NCBI RefSeq assembly: GCF_025751585.1 | Contig: NZ_JAOWKX010000003.1 | Coordinates: 62,001 to 126,000 of the forward strand | Length of the DNA stretch: 64,000 nucleotides | Source of the DNA: Fluctibacter corallii | GTDB taxonomy: Bacteria; Pseudomonadota; Gammaproteobacteria; Enterobacterales; Alteromonadaceae | Direction: 5' to 3' | Part shown: one piece after another, positions 54,569-63,489 of the stretch | Numbering within the stretch: the stretch's first letter is position 1 | Layout of the letters: each line of letters begins with the position of its first letter | The notes under the pieces: generated by a model | The model's database searches: none | Told to the model about the DNA's origin: nothing | What the model saw: the letters and a program-made list of their open reading frames with translations, nothing else | Made by a program: the position numbers and the translations under genes

Positions 54569-55549
54569 ATGGAAATGCTCGCGCCTATTGCAGATAAAAT
54601 GACCGAAGATGAAATCATCGAGCGTTACGACAATATCATTCAACCGTTTTGGCTTGAGACCGTCAAAACGGGTATGTTTGTCGGTTTGCGCGAGGCCGAA
54701 ATACATTACGCATACGTGACTCATCCGGCTGCAAGGGGGGCGGTGGCAATATCGAGTGGAAGAATAGAGTCGCTGATCAAATACAAAGAAGTGGTGTATG
54801 ACTTGTATCAAGCCGGTTATTCGGTGTTTATTCATGATCACCGTGGTCAAGGGCTCTCATCACGACTCACTACCAATCCTCATCAAGGTTATGTTGATAG
54901 CTTTAAAGACTATGTGGACGATTTCAATGTGTTCTATGAACGCGTTATTTCGCCTAACACCACAATAAAACCCATGTTGTTGTGTCACTCAATGGGCAGC
55001 GCAATCGGCGCGTTATATTTATTGGCCCATCCACAGAATTTCAGTCGCGTTGTCTTTTGTGCACCCATGTTTGGCATTCGTCCCGCGTTACCTCATTGGG
55101 TTGCAAAAACGTTGATTCGAAGTCATTTAACCCTGAATAAGATGCTTTCTTCTGACCCATGGTATTTTTGGGGGCAAGGAGATTATCAAGAGCACGATTT
55201 TGTGACAAACGTGCTTACTCATAGCGAAAGTCGTTACTGCATTTTTCGTGACGAATACCGTGAAAATCCAAATGTGTTTTTGGGGGGCGTAACCGGCATT
55301 TGGTTACGCGAAGCAGTGCATGCGATGAATGCCGTGAAGCGCGACGCGCATCGACTCAAGCTGCCAGTATTATTGCTTCAAGCTGGAGCTGATAAAGTGG
55401 TAGATAATCGCGCACAATTACAGGTGGCCAATTCATTACCTCATTGCCAACTGGTCAAAGTAGAAAATGCCCGCCATGAAATACTGATGGAGTCAGAACA
55501 ATACCGAGCTCCAACATTAAAGCGAATTCTTTCGTTTTTAGCTGAGTAA
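54569..55549 (+). CDS. pldB: Alpha/beta hydrolase, lysophospholipase L2 (PldB)-like
   Basis: A 326-residue alpha/beta hydrolase. The oxyanion region is VFIHDHRGQGLSSR near residue 88, the nucleophile elbow is LCHSMGS near 141 and the late block LLQAGADKVVDNRAQL plus a His in ENARHEILME complete the triad. This is the Ser aminopeptidase-S33/PldB pattern, acting on lysophospholipids. It starts 27 bp after mgsA and converges on the array below. Confidence 0.85.
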   Translation: MEMLAPIADKMTEDEIIERYDNIIQPFWLETVKTGMFVGLREAEIHYAYVTHPAARGAVAISSGRIESLIKYKEVVYDLYQAGYSVFIHDHRGQGLSSRLTTNPHQGYVDSFKDYVDDFNVFYERVISPNTTIKPMLLCHSMGSAIGALYLLAHPQNFSRVVFCAPMFGIRPALPHWVAKTLIRSHLTLNKMLSSDPWYFWGQGDYQEHDFVTNVLTHSESRYCIFRDEYRENPNVFLGGVTGIWLREAVHAMNAVKRDAHRLKLPVLLLQAGADKVVDNRAQLQVANSLPHCQLVKVENARHEILMESEQYRAPTLKRILSFLAE

Positions 55550-55565
55550 AAAGGGAATATCTCTA

Positions 55566-56516
55566 CTACTTCACACTAAGCACTGCCTTTTTCCATGGTT
55601 TTAGGCGGATCACACTTTCAACCAGTAGCGAGATGAAGATTAGGTTAAATGTCCATTGAATAGGCAAGAATAAATTGTAAACAATGAGTGTATTAAAGTG
55701 AAGAATATGACGAACGCCATATTCAATTACCATTAATAAAATCAGCCAGAAGTAACAATAACTATGAAACAGAAAGAATTTATCATAAATACTCAAGCTA
55801 ATAAAACTATAATGCTTTCCATGTAAAATATTGAGCTTCGTTTTAATTGTTTTAATAATAAGGGTATTTATAAATGCGCAATGAATATACCAAGTTATAT
55901 CTGGGCGATAAATTTCTTTTAAATACCAGATTATCTCCATTGATATTGCCGAAAAAATGATCATATACATCATTGTCATTACATAATTTTTAGCTAAAAA
56001 ATGTACGGATATCAAGGCGGAGATATAAAGAGCCATTGAAATTTCAAAAGAACTATCTTTTAAAATTACAAAAGCGAACTCGTTTATTAATAGTGATGCT
56101 GAATAAAGTAAGCTGGTAAATACAAGGTCTTTATCTCTTCTTGCAATAAAGGATATACTCAAAACGGCTATCAAATTAAATTTATCGTGATTGTCTGCGT
56201 CACTATATAAAACCATAAAAATCGCATACAGGAAGAAAAGCATTCCAATAACAATAAATAGTGAGATAAATGAAACCCCTCTCTCGACACTGGTCGTAAT
56301 TTTCGGTTTCATTTCTATAGTCTCAGTAGTGCTGCTTTGGCCTGCATTCTGCCAAACTAACATAGCTGATTTCGATAGAGCTTGGTGAGGCGCGGTTTTA
56401 CCTTCTTCAATCGCCTGAATTAAGTAAACGCCCACATTTAGCCTTTCAGCGAGCGCCTCTTGTGATAACCCTGCATTGATGCGTTTTGCTTTTAGCTCTT
56501 CAGATAATAATGTCAT
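55566..56516 (-). CDS. HTH-multi-TM paralogue A
   Basis: A 316-residue protein of the six-member array. The N-terminal RodZ-like helix-turn-helix (about residues 8-42, SQEALAERLNVGVYLIQAIE) is followed by a conserved Trp near 54, a short linker and about eight membrane segments from about 95 to 305. Shared motifs are IARRDKD after the second helix, the acidic Glu in LLINEFAF, EIIWYLKE...PDITWY and EYGVRHI. There is no signal peptide, so the HTH is cytoplasmic. Its 5' end is nearly identical to genes B and C. I do not recognise a family name. Confidence 0.75.
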   Translation of the reverse strand: MTLLSEELKAKRINAGLSQEALAERLNVGVYLIQAIEEGKTAPHQALSKSAMLVWQNAGQSSTTETIEMKPKITTSVERGVSFISLFIVIGMLFFLYAIFMVLYSDADNHDKFNLIAVLSISFIARRDKDLVFTSLLYSASLLINEFAFVILKDSSFEISMALYISALISVHFLAKNYVMTMMYMIIFSAISMEIIWYLKEIYRPDITWYIHCAFINTLIIKTIKTKLNILHGKHYSFISLSIYDKFFLFHSYCYFWLILLMVIEYGVRHILHFNTLIVYNLFLPIQWTFNLIFISLLVESVIRLKPWKKAVLSVK

Positions 56517-56575
56517 AACTACGTGGTACTTGGTTGTGAGAGTGAAAACATGCTATTTCCAGAGTTTGTCTCGAA
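56351..56575. repeat. Array repeat copy 1
   Basis: Covers the 5' end of gene A, the 36-bp spacer and the 3' end of gene B. It is nearly identical to copy 2 from about 56380 on, including spacer motifs GTCATAACTACGTGGT and TTGGTTGTGAGAGTGAAAAC; its first part also matches copy 3. Only scattered substitutions and one small indel separate copies 1 and 2. Confidence 0.85.
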
Positions 56576-57467
56576 TTATCGCATCTATAATTAATGTAAT
56601 AAAGATAATTGAAAAAGCTAAATTTATTATCCAGTAGCCAAAGTAAAATATAAATACCTCGTAGCCTATGATATGTCTTACTCCATATTCAAGAGAGCAT
56701 AACGTCGTCATTACTAATAAAAGGTTAGAAAAGTAAAAGTAAACTTTATCATAAAATCTAAGTTCAGATATGGTCCTATGCTTTTTAAATAATATGTATT
56801 CTTTTGTCTTTAAGAAATAAATAGTTGCTAGATTTGATAACGTTATCCAAGTGAACCATGCGATTTTGGGTGAGTCATATTCCGTTATATACCACCAAGA
56901 TTCTAGACCGATATTAACAAGAAAATGACAGAGCACTAGAAATTTAATTGTATTATTCTTCAATAAAGGAATAACTAATAATGTCAATATATAAATGATA
57001 GCGTTAAAGGTAAAGTTTTCCGAATTTAATAAGGCAGAAAACATAATATCATTAGGGGCTAGCGTTAGAGCGTAAAGAGTACATGTGAAAAAAATGCTTT
57101 TATTTCTTCGACCTATAACAGCACAGGCTAGAACAGTAATTAGTACCGCTCTGTCCAATTTTATTGCATCATTGTATAAATGATAAAAAATAGAAAAAAT
57201 AAATAGTATTATAGAAAGTATAAACAGTTTGGAAATCAATGAAATTGGCAGCAATAAACTTTGATGACCCGACGAAAATTCGGAATTATTTGGCAAAGTA
57301 TACCATGACGAAATTTTTGATTTAGAAAATGCTTGGTGAGGATCGGTTTTACCTTCTTCAATCGCCTGAATTAAGTAAACGCCGACATTTAGCCTTTCAG
57401 CGAGCGCCTCTTGTGATAACCCTGCATCAATGCGTTTTGCTTTTAGTTGTTCAGATAATAATGTCAT
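56553..57467 (-). CDS. HTH-multi-TM paralogue B
   Basis: A 304-residue member. The HTH (SQEALAERLNVGVYLIQAIE) is identical over 20 residues to genes A and C, but after about residue 50 the sequence diverges strongly. About eight hydrophobic segments follow. Shared motifs are IGRRNKS, LAPNDIMF, ESWWYITE...PKIAWF (Trp-Phe instead of Trp-Tyr) and EYGVRHI. It ends in a basic DKLWK. The gene is separated from A by 36 bp and from C by 39 bp. AT content is high in the membrane part. Confidence 0.75.
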   Translation of the reverse strand: MTLLSEQLKAKRIDAGLSQEALAERLNVGVYLIQAIEEGKTDPHQAFSKSKISSWYTLPNNSEFSSGHQSLLLPISLISKLFILSIILFIFSIFYHLYNDAIKLDRAVLITVLACAVIGRRNKSIFFTCTLYALTLAPNDIMFSALLNSENFTFNAIIYILTLLVIPLLKNNTIKFLVLCHFLVNIGLESWWYITEYDSPKIAWFTWITLSNLATIYFLKTKEYILFKKHRTISELRFYDKVYFYFSNLLLVMTTLCSLEYGVRHIIGYEVFIFYFGYWIINLAFSIIFITLIIDAIIRDKLWK

Positions 57468-57545
57468 AACTACGTGGTGCTGCTTGGTTGTGAGAGTGAA
57501 AACATGCTACTTCCAGAGCTTGTGGCGGATTATACTTTCAACTAG
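57331..57545. repeat. Array repeat copy 2
   Basis: Covers the 5' end of gene B, the spacer and the 3' end of gene C. It matches copy 1 with only a few substitutions from about 57331 to 57522, then weakens into the diverged C-terminal coding part. Confidence 0.85.
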
Positions 57546-58430
57546 GAGCAAGATGAAGATTAGGCTAAATACTCCTTGTATGTATGGATACGCGTAATGA
57601 ATATTGAGTGTATGGTAATGAAGAATATGTCGAATACCATACTCAATCACTACTAATAAAATTAGTAGGAAATAGAAATAGTAATGAAATAGAAAAAATT
57701 TGTCATACAGTTTTAAATCAGAAAACCTAAAATTCTTTTTGTAAAGGAGTTTAGGCTTTTGTTTAATTAGACTAATAACAATGATATCTATAAATATACA
57801 ATGTATATACCATGTTATGCTTGGCCTACTATATTCCTCTAAGTACCAATACAGTTCCATTGATACAACTAAAAAAACAGTTAAAAATATTATTTTTTTT
57901 AACAGGTTTCTAGTTAAAAAATGTGCCGAAAGTAGCGTAAAAATATAAATGGTTATTGATAACTCCAATGAACTGTTTATTAATATTGGAAAGAGTAAGT
58001 CGTTTATAACAAGTAGTGCAGAGCAAAGTAGACATGTGAAAACTAGATCTCGGTCTTTTCTTGCAATAAATCCTAAACTTAATATCGTTATTAGAATAAC
58101 TCTATCATTATTGACTGGATTACTATGGGATAAAATGAAAACTAAGAGTAGAAAAGCTACTATGCCTACAACAATAAGTGAGCTACAAAAAGAGACTGCC
58201 ATTGCGATAGTGGAGGTAATATTTGACCTGATCTGCATAACGCCAGACGGGTTCCTTCGGCATGCAGTCCCCCAAACTACCATAGCTGATTTCGATAGTG
58301 CTTGGTGAGGAGAGGTTTCACCCTCTTCAATCGCCTGAATTAAGTATACGCCCACATTTAGCCTTTCAGCGAGCGCCTCTTGTGACAAACCCGCATTGAT
58401 ACGCCTTGCTTTTAATTCTTCAGATAACAT
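57507..58430 (-). CDS. HTH-multi-TM paralogue C
   Basis: A 307-residue member most like A over its full length (AMVVW after the HTH, YDKFFLFHYYFYF, EYGIRHILHYHTL, ESIIRHKLWK). About eight membrane segments. Shared motifs are IARKDRD, LLVINDLLF, ELYWYLEE...PSITWY. It starts at MLSEEL, two residues shorter than A. The region upstream of its start differs from that of A and B, and the IS element ends 50 bp upstream, so its native promoter may have been displaced. Confidence 0.75.
   Translation of the reverse strand: MLSEELKARRINAGLSQEALAERLNVGVYLIQAIEEGETSPHQALSKSAMVVWGTACRRNPSGVMQIRSNITSTIAMAVSFCSSLIVVGIVAFLLLVFILSHSNPVNNDRVILITILSLGFIARKDRDLVFTCLLCSALLVINDLLFPILINSSLELSITIYIFTLLSAHFLTRNLLKKIIFLTVFLVVSMELYWYLEEYSRPSITWYIHCIFIDIIVISLIKQKPKLLYKKNFRFSDLKLYDKFFLFHYYFYFLLILLVVIEYGIRHILHYHTLNIHYAYPYIQGVFSLIFILLLVESIIRHKLWK
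58271..58430. repeat. Array repeat copy 3
   Basis: Covers the 5' coding end of gene C. It matches copy 1, including the shared CATAGCTGATTTCGATAG stretch, and is more diverged than copies 1 and 2 are from each other. It stops at the gene C start, without the shared spacer. Confidence 0.8.
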
Positions 58431-58528
58431 CTACAGCTCGTCACCTAGTTTTATGTAATACATGGCTAACATACTCAAAATGACCTTTCCCCGAGATTAA
58501 TACCAATCTCTCGATGAGATTTTTCATA

Positions 58529-59347
58529 TTATGCTGCCCGTTTTGCATACTCAACAGGCGGTAAATAATTCAGTGAACTGTGTGGTCGAATATGGTTGTA
58601 ATGGTCACGCCACAGATCAATTTCATACTTTGCTTCTTCAATCGTTCTGAACCAGTGTTGATTCAGACATTCATTCCTGAATTTTCCATTGAGACTTTCC
58701 ACAAAGGCATTTTGTGTTGGTTTACCTGGCTGAATAAACCCAAGCTCTACTCCTGACTCTTTGCTCCAGAAGAACATAGCTATACTAGTGAATTCCGTAC
58801 CATTGTCGCAAATCACTTTCCTTGGTTTACCACGTTGCTCAATTAACTGACTCAGAAAACGAGCTACCTGCCTGCCGCTGATGGAAACAGAGACTAACTG
58901 GCCCACCATCTCTCGCGAGTAATCATCAACCACATTGAGTACGCGGAAACGCCTTCCATTGGCCAATTGGTCGGATACAAAGTCCATCGACCAACGCTCA
59001 TTCGCTGCGGTTGGCACCTCCATCGGCTGCCTGGGGCGCGTCAACTTCTTACGCTTCTTGGTTCTGACCTGCAATACTTCTTCGGTATACAACCGATAAG
59101 TACGCTTCCGGTTGATGACCAAGCCTTCACCTTTGAGCAGGCCATGCAACATCAGATAGCCATACCGTGGATACTGCGACGCAAGCTCCTTGAGCCTTGT
59201 TCTGATAGGAACATCGCCCTTGTCCTTACGCTGATAGCGAAACGCTGTCCTACTCACGCCAGCTAGCCTGCACGCAACACGCTCACTCAGTTTGAATGTC
59301 TCCATCAAGTGGCGGGCAACGGGCTTTCTTGCAGCTGGCTTCACCAC
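58529..59347 (-). CDS. IS3-family transposase OrfB (DDE integrase core)
   Basis: A 272-residue frame read by -1 frameshift from OrfA at the A6G slippery run at 59347-59353. An HTH_21 region precedes the rve integrase core. DDE residues are in SMDFVSDQ, VICDNGTEF and NAFVESLNGKFRNECL. No internal stop is present. The GTG at 59347 is the start of the open frame, not necessarily of translation. Confidence 0.93.
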   Translation of the reverse strand: MVKPAARKPVARHLMETFKLSERVACRLAGVSRTAFRYQRKDKGDVPIRTRLKELASQYPRYGYLMLHGLLKGEGLVINRKRTYRLYTEEVLQVRTKKRKKLTRPRQPMEVPTAANERWSMDFVSDQLANGRRFRVLNVVDDYSREMVGQLVSVSISGRQVARFLSQLIEQRGKPRKVICDNGTEFTSIAMFFWSKESGVELGFIQPGKPTQNAFVESLNGKFRNECLNQHWFRTIEEAKYEIDLWRDHYNHIRPHSSLNYLPPVEYAKRAA

Positions 59348-59604
59348 TTTTTTGACAACGCATCCTTCATGGCTTCGACTTCCAACAACTTGTCAGCCAG
59401 CATCTTCTTGAACTTATTGTTCTCTGACTCTAGCTCCTTGAGTCGCTTGGCTTCGTTTACCTCAAGTCCCGCGTATTTGCTTCGCCAGTTATAAAACGTG
59501 CCGGTGGATATGCCCATATCACGACAGATGTCGTCAACCTTGGCTCCGGCTTCATGCTGCTTGATGGCTTTTATGATTTGTTCTTCGCTGTAACGTTTCT
59601 TCAT
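59341..59604 (-). CDS. IS3-family OrfA (HTH protein)
   Basis: An 87-residue protein starting MKKRYSEEQIIKAIKQHEAG, with GISTGTFYNWRSKYAG and a leucine-zipper-like tail ending LSKKW. It is the DNA-binding partner of OrfB, typical of the IS407/IS51 group. Confidence 0.93.
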   Translation of the reverse strand: MKKRYSEEQIIKAIKQHEAGAKVDDICRDMGISTGTFYNWRSKYAGLEVNEAKRLKELESENNKFKKMLADKLLEVEAMKDALSKKW

Positions 59605-59747
59605 CTTAAGATCTCCATTGTCTCCAGTTTATTGGAAATCTCATCAATGTCATGGTGTTAAATTTGGGGGAAAGGGTCAAAAAGTATCTTGTCTATTTGA
59701 AATGCTTATGGTGTTGGCAAATTAAGTATTCTCTCATTGCTAGTTTT

Positions 59748-59776
59748 AAAATAATTAAATTCAGCGAATAGCTGAA
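59748..59776 (-). terminator. Terminator after gene D of the array
   Basis: On the minus strand TTCAGC and GCTGAA pair around TATTC and are followed by TTTAATTATTTT. A second hairpin (GTAGTG/CACTAC, near 59783-59810) lies just before it. It suggests that transcription of F-E-D normally ends before the IS and that C-B-A form a separate unit. Confidence 0.6.
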
Positions 59777-59846
59777 GTTGTAGTGGTCGGGGCATCTTGG
59801 TCACTACAAGTAGAAATATTAAAAAATTATAACGCACACTTCAGAT

Positions 59847-60932
59847 TTATCGGATATTGTTATCAACATTTTTTATACCCTCAGCTTGCGCTCCTTTTAG
59901 GAAGTTAGGGATAAATACTCTTTTCGCCAGAGCTGGTAAAGATATGTTTTCCTCATAGCTTTTTGTCTTAGAAAAAACGTGATAAAACAGCGCCGCTATA
60001 AATGAAAATAGATAAAGACTTGCAACGTAACTATATGATGTGTGTAAAAATACCGAATCTATTTTTCCAATATGTCTCAATATATATTCTATTATCACAA
60101 TGAAAATTAGAGGTTGATAAAATGCCATAAACCTTAATATTATTTTATCAAATACGTGTTTTTCAACCCTTCCTTGGGGGGTGATGGATATATATTTTCT
60201 TTCAATTAAAGTGGTGACAATTAAACATTCAGCTGATACATAAAGATACCAAGATATAAAAGGCGACGGATATTCATTCAAATACCAGTAAGTCTCAGTA
60301 GTAAGAGCGGTTAGTAGCGTAATGAGGTAAATTGGCGAATAACGGCATTTTCTACATAAAATGTAGGCAAGCATGCTTATCACGTAAAGCAAAATTTTAG
60401 GAAGATAATTTCTAAAATTGTCCACATAATCTACCACTAAAAAAGAAAAGATAATATCATTGATTACTTTAATGATAATGATTATAAATGCGGTGGCTAT
60501 AAAGTGTGGGTCTTTTCGTCCTACGTAGGCTAAAACCATAACTAATAATAGGCTTACACGATCGGGATTTATACGAAAGTTGTACTCTGATGTAACATCA
60601 TATGCCTGTATATGTGAAAAAAAAGCCAAAAAAAAGAATAAGAATAGAAGCAACCAAACGCTAAAATTTATGGCCTTTGTTAAAGCATTTGAATTGCGTG
60701 TTGATTGATGGGATAAACTTAACCAGAGAGTTAAGGTCTTTGATGGTAATGCGGCTTTGGCATCTATAGTGCCTACCTCTATGCTTTCAATCAGATAAAT
60801 ACTGATATTAAGTCGGTCTGCCAGTTCTTTTTGTGATAATCCTGCATTCTTTCTTATATTTTTCAGCGTTAAGTGAGAAGCGTTACGGCTATTCAATGTT
60901 TTCTGGTCCTGTTTCCTTGGCGTTTTGTCCAA
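59847..60932 (-). CDS. HTH-multi-TM paralogue D
   Basis: A 361-residue member, the longest. A basic N-terminal extension leads to the HTH (SQKELADRLNISIYLIESIE, about 32-51), a conserved Trp near 68 and eight membrane segments. Shared motifs are VGRKDPH, KVINDIIF, ETYWYLNE...PFISWY and EYILRHI. The C terminus carries a 30-residue polar tail. The start is a TTG at 60932, three bases after the gene E stop; no in-frame ATG exists before the HTH, so translation is probably coupled to gene E. Confidence 0.72.
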   Translation of the reverse strand: MDKTPRKQDQKTLNSRNASHLTLKNIRKNAGLSQKELADRLNISIYLIESIEVGTIDAKAALPSKTLTLWLSLSHQSTRNSNALTKAINFSVWLLLFLFFFLAFFSHIQAYDVTSEYNFRINPDRVSLLLVMVLAYVGRKDPHFIATAFIIIIIKVINDIIFSFLVVDYVDNFRNYLPKILLYVISMLAYILCRKCRYSPIYLITLLTALTTETYWYLNEYPSPFISWYLYVSAECLIVTTLIERKYISITPQGRVEKHVFDKIILRFMAFYQPLIFIVIIEYILRHIGKIDSVFLHTSYSYVASLYLFSFIAALFYHVFSKTKSYEENISLPALAKRVFIPNFLKGAQAEGIKNVDNNIR

Positions 60933-60935
60933 TAC

Positions 60936-61889
60936 TCAATGCTGTATGTCGAGGGGTTTTATATTATCACCATAGTATAAGAAATGTACCTGAACGAGAA
61001 GTAGTGAAGCAACAAATATCACGTAAACATAAGAATAGATTTCGTAAATCACGAACACCTCAATCTGGAACATATGCCGTGCGATAAATTCAATGATATT
61101 AAGCAGAATTATGTATTGATAGAATGATGCGAATATATGAATGATACGATCATAATTTTGAGTTCTTTTATTTTCATTACTGGCAACGCGTGCGCTCTTA
61201 AATGCGATGCATTGGCTGAGTAAGAGATATTGACATCCAATATATAAATACCAACTTATAAATGGTGCGGGTAGCCCTTGATGGGCCCAGTATAAGTCGG
61301 CGCTTAAACAAGTGAAGAAAGCCACTACGCTCGCCCTTATGTGCTTGTGGTTTCTAGCGAATATTAAACAGATGACGCTTGTGGCATATAAAAGTAAGCT
61401 AATTAAAAGCTTTTCATTAGTTAGGGTGGAATAATAAACATTTATAATTAAAGAATAGAAGAATTCCTCTGCTAGCATGAAAGCGATGATTAATACCGAG
61501 CTAAGGAAGAAATCTACATGCCTTCTTCCCACTAAAGCGAGCATTAGTAGGAATGCTAAGGCAATTCTTGATGCATTCACACCCGAATCAAATGCATTTG
61601 GAAATCCCAATGAGTACACTTGAGCGAGCGCGCAAATCGTGCATAAGACTAAAATAATGGAGAATGAGAATAACTTATATATCTGGGCATAGGTTGACTG
61701 GCGTTTATGTTTTTCCGTGTTGTGGTCTAGCCAACGTTTGAAGGCGCTGCGATTCAGCGCTTTTTTCGCATTCACATCGCCGCGTTCGATTGCTTCTAGT
61801 AGAAATTGTCCCACACCAACATGTTGAGCGATTTTGGCATCGGAATTATCTTGCTTGTGGAGCATTCTGCTTTCCATATTAAAATGCAT
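60936..61889 (-). CDS. HTH-multi-TM paralogue E, with diverged HTH
   Basis: A 317-residue member. The N-terminal HTH is degenerate (DAKIAQHVGVGQFLLEAIERG replaces SQ-x-x-LAxRL), so DNA binding may be altered or lost. Eight membrane segments follow, with shared motifs VGRRHVD, LAEEFFY, ADLYWAHQ...PFISWY and EFIARHM. Starts at 61889, 61877 or 61865 are all possible; the last has the best ribosome site (GGAAAGCAGA). It lies three bases after the gene F stop. Confidence 0.72.
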   Translation of the reverse strand: MHFNMESRMLHKQDNSDAKIAQHVGVGQFLLEAIERGDVNAKKALNRSAFKRWLDHNTEKHKRQSTYAQIYKLFSFSIILVLCTICALAQVYSLGFPNAFDSGVNASRIALAFLLMLALVGRRHVDFFLSSVLIIAFMLAEEFFYSLIINVYYSTLTNEKLLISLLLYATSVICLIFARNHKHIRASVVAFFTCLSADLYWAHQGLPAPFISWYLYIGCQYLLLSQCIAFKSARVASNENKRTQNYDRIIHIFASFYQYIILLNIIEFIARHMFQIEVFVIYEIYSYVYVIFVASLLLVQVHFLYYGDNIKPLDIQH

Positions 61890-61892
61890 TAG

Positions 61893-62861
61893 CTACGAAT
61901 GGAGTTTTTCGATTCTAAAGCGATAATATATAATTGATAGTAAAAAACTGAAAAAATATATTGTCGAAAACAGTAAGTAACCATCATAAATTAATCTTAT
62001 ATTTAAATTAAATTCATATCGTAGTACGTATTCTAGTATCATGAACAATATAAGATATTGATATAGTTCCATATATTTTTTTATAACCATGTCATAAACT
62101 TTGTATTTTCCTTTAAAATTATTTAATTTTCGATGTTTAACTTTTAATAGGGCTAAGATCAATAGACACTGTGACCCATTGTACATATACCAGGCTATTT
62201 TAGGTGCATCGACTTGTGTAATCGTCCAGTAAACTTCTAGGCTGATTGCTAATAGCAAACTCGATAAGAATATTATTCGACACCTTTCTTTTTTGCATAA
62301 AAAGTAGGTGATAATACTAAAAATATATATTAATACATCGTAGCCTGTGTCTACTTTTACAAAAGTATCTGGGGATGTTTGTACGGCGCTGATATAGTCT
62401 CCGTATAGGACAGAGTAAACTAATTCTGCAGCAATTTTGAAGATAATAAGAATGACTATAGATAAGAATAGGTCTTTGTAATTTCTATTTATGATAGCGG
62501 CTATAAATAGAATCAGAATTCCCACTTTATCAGCATTAGAGCCAGGTTCAAAGTCCGCACTCAGGTCAAAAGTACCGATAAAAGAAGTCACTGCAACAAG
62601 ATAAAGGCCGGCTAACAAAAATATGCTAAACAGAGGAGTGGTATTTTTTTTAATTTTGGTTAACAGGCTTTTAGGTTCTCCTTTTGATAAGTTTATCCAT
62701 CCCTGACGAGCTTCATCGGGGATGTGTGATATCGGAATGTTTCCTTCTTCTACTTTTTTTATTAGAAACGCGCCAATCCTTAACCTCGTAGCTAGTTCAT
62801 CTTGGCTAAGGTTTGCTGAGGTGCGAATCGATTTCAACGTTTCGCTTGAAATACTATCCAT
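61893..62861 (-). CDS. HTH-multi-TM paralogue F
   Basis: A 322-residue member and the first gene of the F-E-D operon. HTH: SQDELATRLRIGAFLIKKVE (about 20-39), conserved Trp near 55, then eight membrane segments (about 72-310). Shared motifs are INRNYKD, KIAAELVY, EVYWTITQ...PKIAWY and EYVLRYEF (Tyr instead of His). The ATG at 62861 gives MDSISSETLKSIR. It is divergent from trmL with a 160-bp gap that should hold its promoter. Confidence 0.75.
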   Translation of the reverse strand: MDSISSETLKSIRTSANLSQDELATRLRIGAFLIKKVEEGNIPISHIPDEARQGWINLSKGEPKSLLTKIKKNTTPLFSIFLLAGLYLVAVTSFIGTFDLSADFEPGSNADKVGILILFIAAIINRNYKDLFLSIVILIIFKIAAELVYSVLYGDYISAVQTSPDTFVKVDTGYDVLIYIFSIITYFLCKKERCRIIFLSSLLLAISLEVYWTITQVDAPKIAWYMYNGSQCLLILALLKVKHRKLNNFKGKYKVYDMVIKKYMELYQYLILFMILEYVLRYEFNLNIRLIYDGYLLFSTIYFFSFLLSIIYYRFRIEKLHS

Positions 62862-63021: not shown

Positions 63022-63489
63022 ATGATGCTTGATATCGTTTTATTTCAGCCTGAAATTCCTCCTAATACTGGTAATATCATTCGTTTGTGCGCAAACACAG
63101 GGTTCAATCTTCATTTAATTGAGCCTCTTGGTTTTGATTGGGACGATAAGCGGGTGAGGCGAGCAGGGCTTGATTATCATGAATTTGCGGACGTGATCCG
63201 TCATCAAGATTTACAAGCCTACATAGATGCCCGCCAGCCGAAAAGAATATTTGCTTGCACAACCAAAGGGAAGGCTTACCACGCTGATGTATCTTATGAG
63301 CAGGGAGATGCATTGCTATTTGGGCCAGAAACGCGTGGTTTGCCTGATGATATTATTCAATCATTGCCTCCTGAGCAGCGAGTGAGAATTCCAATGTTGC
63401 CTCAAAGCCGCAGTATGAACTTGTCGAACGCTGTGTCGGTATTCGTATATGAAGCATGGAGACAGTTTGATTTCTCTGGCTCGATATAA
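63022..63489 (+). CDS. trmL: tRNA (cytidine(34)-2'-O)-methyltransferase
   Basis: A 155-residue SPOUT-class enzyme that methylates the ribose of position 34 in tRNA-Leu isoacceptors. The N-terminal [26 protein letters not shown] and [18 protein letters not shown] motifs form the trefoil-knot AdoMet site. Two adjacent ATGs (63022 and 63025) are possible starts. Confidence 0.96.

Follow-up and report, generated by a model that had tools for sequence, protein, structure and literature searches.

We analysed a 64,000-nucleotide stretch of the Fluctibacter corallii genome (assembly GCF_025751585.1, contig NZ_JAOWKX010000003.1, positions 62,001 to 126,000; hereafter the window), which carries a tandem array of six minus-strand genes, A to F, each coding for a helix-turn-helix (HTH) part followed by an eight-helix membrane part. 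Our reading, to which we give a probability of roughly 0.6, is that the array derives from a cassette for peptide signalling whose receptor belongs to a new family, and that regulator and receptor are fused in the window genes, which have no peptide gene nearby. In relatives, the two parts are encoded by separate genes, nearly always together with a gene for a secreted peptide precursor; this was the outcome of looking for a constant partner gene in the neighbourhoods of homologues, a check proposed in the initial annotation of the array. The split two-gene form is the common one and the fused form the exception, and we claim novelty for the cassette as a system, of which the window array is a fused derivative. 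Homology, cassette composition, topology, covariation and palindrome position were computed over a sampled set of genomes.

An alignment built from the window genes only was compared with relatives and detected homologues down to E 4e-22, in which the HTH and the membrane part were two adjacent genes. The stand-alone membrane homologues have about 237 amino acids and the split HTH protein about 88, and the HTH gene overlaps or closely adjoins the receptor gene. A profile of split receptors only matched the membrane parts of all six window genes (E 1e-20 to 1e-28); about 1200 shuffled or reversed control sequences reached at best 1.4 bits. Profile-profile comparison of the split and the fused membrane part gave 99.7% probability. 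The split HTH profile matched A, B, C, D and F through the conserved Trp, with D as the best match. Because profiles of both split proteins match the window genes, we read the window proteins as fusions of the split HTH and receptor gene products, which would be Rosetta-stone evidence that regulator and receptor work as a single unit. The initial annotation had suggested membrane-bound regulators or receptors, possibly with one ligand each; on the present computational evidence both points are counted as supported. The split cassette was present in 45 of 397 genomes of the window's own family, with hosts in Aliiglaciecola, Paraglaciecola, Thalassomonas, Cognaticolwellia and Pseudoalteromonas, and the window's genome has a seventh, split copy at C18:183564. 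Two genomes (G071 and G106) had four to five separate cassettes each, most with a differing peptide core.

The third gene of the cassette is a small open reading frame (ORF) that follows the receptor gene at a distance of 40-200 base pairs (bp); its start resembles a signal peptide, and its core reads [G/S][G/S]KxxPP (or Asp-Pro in place of Pro-Pro). Under a strict rule, the peptide gene was detected in 58 of 68 loci and in 2 of 1360 dinucleotide shuffles; applied to antisense and to upstream regions, the same rule gave 3 of 68 and 11 of 132, respectively. A looser rule recovered it in 66 of 73 loci: 27 had at least 3 cores (at most 30) within a single protein, 6 had tandem gene copies (3-6 near-identical genes) and 33 were single. 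Of the seven loci negative under the looser rule, three are cut short by the end of the contig, and a fourth does have a visible peptide. Small or hydrophobic residues stand ahead of each core and resemble signal-peptidase sites, which suggests that the precursor may be cleaved there. Some draft contigs (L055, L057, L058 and L064) stop within or just ahead of the peptide gene. Peptide genes are thus probably under-counted, since contigs break at this gene, as expected from repeats. A mimicry of the HTH C-terminal tail by the C-terminal tail of the precursor was also considered and rejected (15.7 for cognate and 16.2 for non-cognate pairs).

Upstream of the peptide start, commonly by 25-35 bp, we found a palindrome of the type TGTGGATTTAAATCCACA. 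At up to 2 mismatches it was present in 44 of 65 loci, compared with 11% of shuffles. Across ten whole genomes it occurred 0-2 times per genome (once or twice in eight of them), with all sites at the cassette except one two-mismatch site, and the reversed pattern was not found. Its position and linkage suggest that the HTH protein may bind to it. Next to the cassette in three loci (L282, L284 and L278) is a small HTH gene (MYITG[SA]DLRKMRLEAGLTT...) with another such palindrome ahead of it; the product of this gene may be an output regulator.

The AlphaFold model of gene C, based on a 68-row alignment, had a mean predicted local distance difference test (pLDDT) score of 91.4 and comprised five short N-terminal helices, then exactly eight long ones (67-103, 105-122, 127-151, 155-169, 175-197, 206-223, 241-270 and 276-305). 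This agrees with the about eight hydrophobic segments first noted from the sequence, and is clear of the limit of about six helices below which that description would fail. The count of Lys plus Arg residues was higher in the loops expected to be cytoplasmic (1.63, 2.46, 3.35 and 1.91) than in the other loops (0.90, 0.90, 0.62 and 1.43); the positive-inside rule therefore supports eight passes with the N and C termini inside. The family-conserved residues D109, E192, W195, P203, E263, Y264 and R267 (C numbering) were placed in the loop after helix 5 and where helices 2, 5 and 7 end on the outer side, while K225 and D243 were placed on the inner side. This conserved cluster is common to all specificity types of the receptor described below, and both the topology and the outer-face residues are kept across A-F, where most of the seven are retained. 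In the model, the acidic and aromatic outer face would suit a cationic Lys/Pro peptide and may be where the ligand binds.

Peptide and receptor vary together. The peptide core covaried with the receptor given the HTH (partial Mantel r 0.41, p 0.001), while no covariation was seen with the HTH given the receptor (partial Mantel r -0.13), shared ancestry being only partly corrected in both tests. Loci L054 and L055 have an HTH 100% identical to that of L057, and receptors only 42-43% identical. Between L054 and L048, DNA homology ends early in the receptor gene, is absent through the peptide gene and resumes beyond it at 91%. In some strains, therefore, receptor and peptide appear to have been replaced as a block while the HTH stayed constant, as in pheromone specificity groups.

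Such matched fast evolution of peptide and membrane protein is also typical of toxin/immunity pairs, as are orphan arrays, and multi-copy precursors are known from insect proline-rich antimicrobial peptides. The cationic proline-containing peptide could accordingly be an antimicrobial of narrow spectrum, to which the membrane protein confers immunity; the HTH would be an operon regulator and the array a bank of orphan immunity genes. We consider this unlikely, although it is the best placed of the alternatives. An immunity protein has no need of a fused HTH, whereas each of the six window copies is a fusion of HTH type; the translational overlap of HTH and receptor and a palindrome nearly restricted to the cassette are better explained by autoregulated signalling; and a receptor cluster shared over all specificity types is as for a common ligand scaffold. 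Slightly less probable still is a sensor of envelope state, in which the small exported protein would be a periplasmic reporter or modulator, as other small regulatory proteins of the envelope are, and would be read in the same cell by the membrane protein, with no cell-to-cell signal. The signal-peptide-like start and autoregulation would be equally expected there, and the Gram-negative outer membrane would hold back the larger precursors. However, the 3-30 core repeats, the near-identical tandem genes and the block replacement with a constant HTH together point to a released ligand with its dosage and specificity, and not to housekeeping.

Under the peptide-signalling reading, we propose that the small Cro/C1-type regulator binds the palindrome at the peptide-gene promoter and controls the peptide gene, and that the eight-helix receptor, translationally coupled to it and set in the inner membrane with cytoplasmic termini, holds or controls the regulator. 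The precursor would be exported by Sec and would release a short cationic Gly/Ser-Lys-x-x-Pro-Pro peptide. Acidic and aromatic residues clustered where helices 2, 5 and 7 reach the periplasm would sense this peptide, which would alter the activity of the regulator, so that peptide sensing and a regulator acting on the peptide gene would form an autoinducing loop. Joint shifts of receptor and peptide with a constant regulator would keep signal types private from one another. The window would hold a derived form, with the regulator fused to the receptor, the unit multiplied six-fold and no peptide gene alongside. Since no peptide was found nearby, or elsewhere in the genome except in the C18 cassette, the ligands of the array may be shared or foreign: its copies probably sense the single known peptide of the genome, that of the C18 cassette, or the peptides of neighbours. 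We would give about even odds to a fuller version, with Gram-negative peptide pheromones that comprise new eight-helix receptors, alpha-factor-like polyproteins cut at repeated signal-peptidase-like sites and strain-specific receptor-peptide blocks, and with six fused orphan receptors in the window that heed several neighbour-made peptides.

The six ORFs of the array were all present as initially annotated. Gene A (55566-56516; 316 amino acids) and gene B (56553-57467; 304 amino acids) were assigned by ORF, alignment and split-receptor profile, and gene C (57507-58430; 307 amino acids) by ORF, AlphaFold model and split-receptor profile (membrane part, E 1.7e-28). Gene D (59847-60932; 361 amino acids) has a TTG start and a membrane part matching the same profile at E 1.8e-22; the membrane parts of gene E (60936-61889; 317 amino acids) and gene F (61893-62861; 322 amino acids) had E 1.1e-24 and E 1e-21, respectively. 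The gaps were confirmed too, with 3 bp each for F-E and E-D, 39 bp for C-B and 36 bp for B-A. A-F are homologous end to end, and 17 alignment columns are invariant in all six, including W197, P205, W209, D245, E265 and R269 (A numbering) and the Trp after the HTH, whose conservation had already been pointed out. An HTH had also been assigned to every gene. In the Pfam scan, the HTH matches of A, B and C exceed the curated cut-off and D passes with HTH_24; the match of F is sub-threshold, and E has none. The HTH of E looks degenerate: most of its first helices are gone and the membrane part is kept. Gene E may thus encode a partner that does not bind DNA. Compared among A, B and C, DNA identity is 82-91% over the HTH part, where 76-91% of conserved residues have identical codons, and 45-64% over the membrane part, where 42-60% do. 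The contrast suggests a head that is kept constant and a body that varies, mirroring the pattern of the split cassette inside one genome, and gene conversion has probably taken place among the three genes.

The array lies between a pldB-like hydrolase gene (54569-55549, plus strand) and a trmL-like tRNA methyltransferase gene (63022-63489, plus strand), both assigned by ORF and comparison with relatives. Because pldB and trmL often adjoin directly in relatives lacking the array (e.g. 74 bp apart in G016), this interval is an insertion site and the array an insertion. The placement between the two genes thus stands as first described, but the initial annotation had overlooked an IS3-family element that splits D from C (58481-59679, minus strand). 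It has imperfect inverted ends (TGACC...), a 3-4 bp AAA(A) flanking duplication and transposase ORFs at 58529-59347 and 59341-59604. The F-E-D unit is closed by a terminator-like hairpin 3' of D (59760-59776, minus strand), a kind of site no commoner here than in shuffles. A 43-amino-acid ORF with a hydrophobic start (59706-59837) lies 9 bp past D; it overlaps this hairpin, and was judged probably a chance frame and not a peptide gene.

Several observations weigh against our reading. No peptide gene was found in the window by a six-frame motif scan, a small-ORF scan of all gaps and a check of the empty site of the IS3 element, nor in the window's genome by profile search except in the C18 cassette, and that genome has no TGTGGATTTAAATCCACA palindrome within two mismatches. 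With no adjacent peptide gene and no palindrome in its genome, the array itself is not a canonical cassette. Elsewhere, three loci (L029, L087 and L094) are apparently without a peptide gene, and no export or protease gene was seen travelling with the cassette, although no systematic test was made. The recognition helix of the split regulators has a polar SRET, whereas those of the fused proteins (A-F, residues about 24-34) hold hydrophobic residues there (GVYL, SIYL, GAFL and GQFL) and are RodZ-like. As polar residues are replaced by hydrophobic ones, DNA binding by the fused HTHs is uncertain, and their target may be protein rather than DNA; given these altered helices and the degenerate HTH of E, some of the array copies may not bind DNA. 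That the array has stopped signalling and is decaying, a remnant of fused receptors homogenised by recombination and broken by an IS, would account for the IS3 insertion, the degenerate HTH of E, the altered recognition helices and the missing peptide and palindrome, but seems to us very improbable, because six intact frames (304-361 amino acids) and outer-face residues kept across highly divergent sequences imply selection.

The receptor family and the cassette are apparently undescribed. The membrane part had zero matches in Pfam, NCBIfam, PHROGs and PADLOC, with generic HTH models matching the N-terminus only; it had no sequence match among PDB sequences and no significant fold match in Foldseek searches of PDB and the BFVD viral models. 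Rhodopsins and GPCRs stood at the top of one fold list, with E of at least 0.16 and TM of at most 0.40, and we do not claim that identity. Literature searches did not find a description of the cassette; their coverage is incomplete, with most subscription papers outside it, and this is not proof of absence. The initial annotation had called the family undescribed and without a visible catalytic domain, and both statements agree with these searches, in which no characterised family was matched and only HTH models gave matches. Its suggestion of a contact or defence system found no support, as the PADLOC matches were only generic ones over the HTH. The likeness to RodZ that it noted holds for the HTH and not for the eight-helix membrane part: the RodZ model NF008109 gave 13.7-16.2 bits for A-D, far under its cut-off of 208. 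The best RodZ-type HTH match of the genome (62.5 bits) was a 355-amino-acid frame at another locus, presumably RodZ itself.

Compared with known systems, the array proteins are, like RodZ, membrane proteins with an HTH of the HTH_25/HTH_3 group at the N-terminus, but RodZ crosses the membrane once and has a periplasmic domain. ToxR and CadC likewise join a cytoplasmic DNA-binding-type domain and a membrane part in one polypeptide; they are single-pass proteins with a winged HTH, whereas the HTH matches here were mainly of the Cro/C1 type, with eight passes and no periplasmic domain. In agr and ComQXPA, receptor and ligand change fast together while the output regulator stays constant, which defines specificity groups. 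The cassette shows the same joint change and constant regulator, but agr/ComQXPA receptors are histidine kinases with response regulators, and no histidine kinase domain was found here in the Pfam and NCBIfam scans. The split cassette combines the precursor-receptor linkage and covariation expected of peptide pheromones; the window array lacks the linkage. The RRNPP receptors (Rap, Rgg, NprR, PlcR and PrgX) are cytosolic tetratricopeptide repeat (TPR) proteins of 250-500 amino acids that bind a re-imported peptide, and resemble the cassette in having a secreted propeptide adjoining the regulator, specificity groups and phage-borne examples (PMC10075063). They differ in that the split HTH protein, of the small size given above, had no TPR match, specificity is carried by the membrane protein, and the fused form is membrane-embedded. 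The nearest working analogue would be CylR1/CylR2 of the Enterococcus faecalis cytolysin, in which CylR1, a membrane protein with three predicted helices, is proposed to convey the signal of an extracellular peptide to a Cro-type HTH regulator and free it from the promoter of the peptide operon (PMC3709268). The split cassette has a similar architecture, and its HTH gave a weak, distant Cro-fold match to CylR2 (E 0.1), while no relation of its receptor to CylR1 was detected, although the two were not directly compared; CylR1/CylR2, however, is Gram-positive, its ligand is a lantibiotic toxin subunit, and it has neither fusion nor repeat precursor (PMC3709268). In the part of a 2026 review considered here (PMC13220807), peptide signals are presented as a Gram-positive paradigm and no Gram-negative membrane-receptor peptide pheromone of such type is described. 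The cassette resembles this mainly Gram-positive form of communication, here in marine Gram-negatives. If our reading is true, peptide signalling in abundant marine bacteria becomes directly testable, and the cassettes would offer orthogonal receptor-ligand pairs for synthetic biology.

Finally, samples of the class and order gave no matches outside the window's own family, and neither viral contigs nor the other genomes in the sample yielded the fused form. Searches for mobile carriage gave no plasmid match with the split receptor and no phage match with window gene C. Five IMG/VR contigs (L195, L198, L202, L207 and L209) carried the cassette HTH protein alone, including its Trp/Cys extension, without receptor or peptide, and in L195 it adjoins apparent lysis genes; these putative phages possibly tap or block host signalling.

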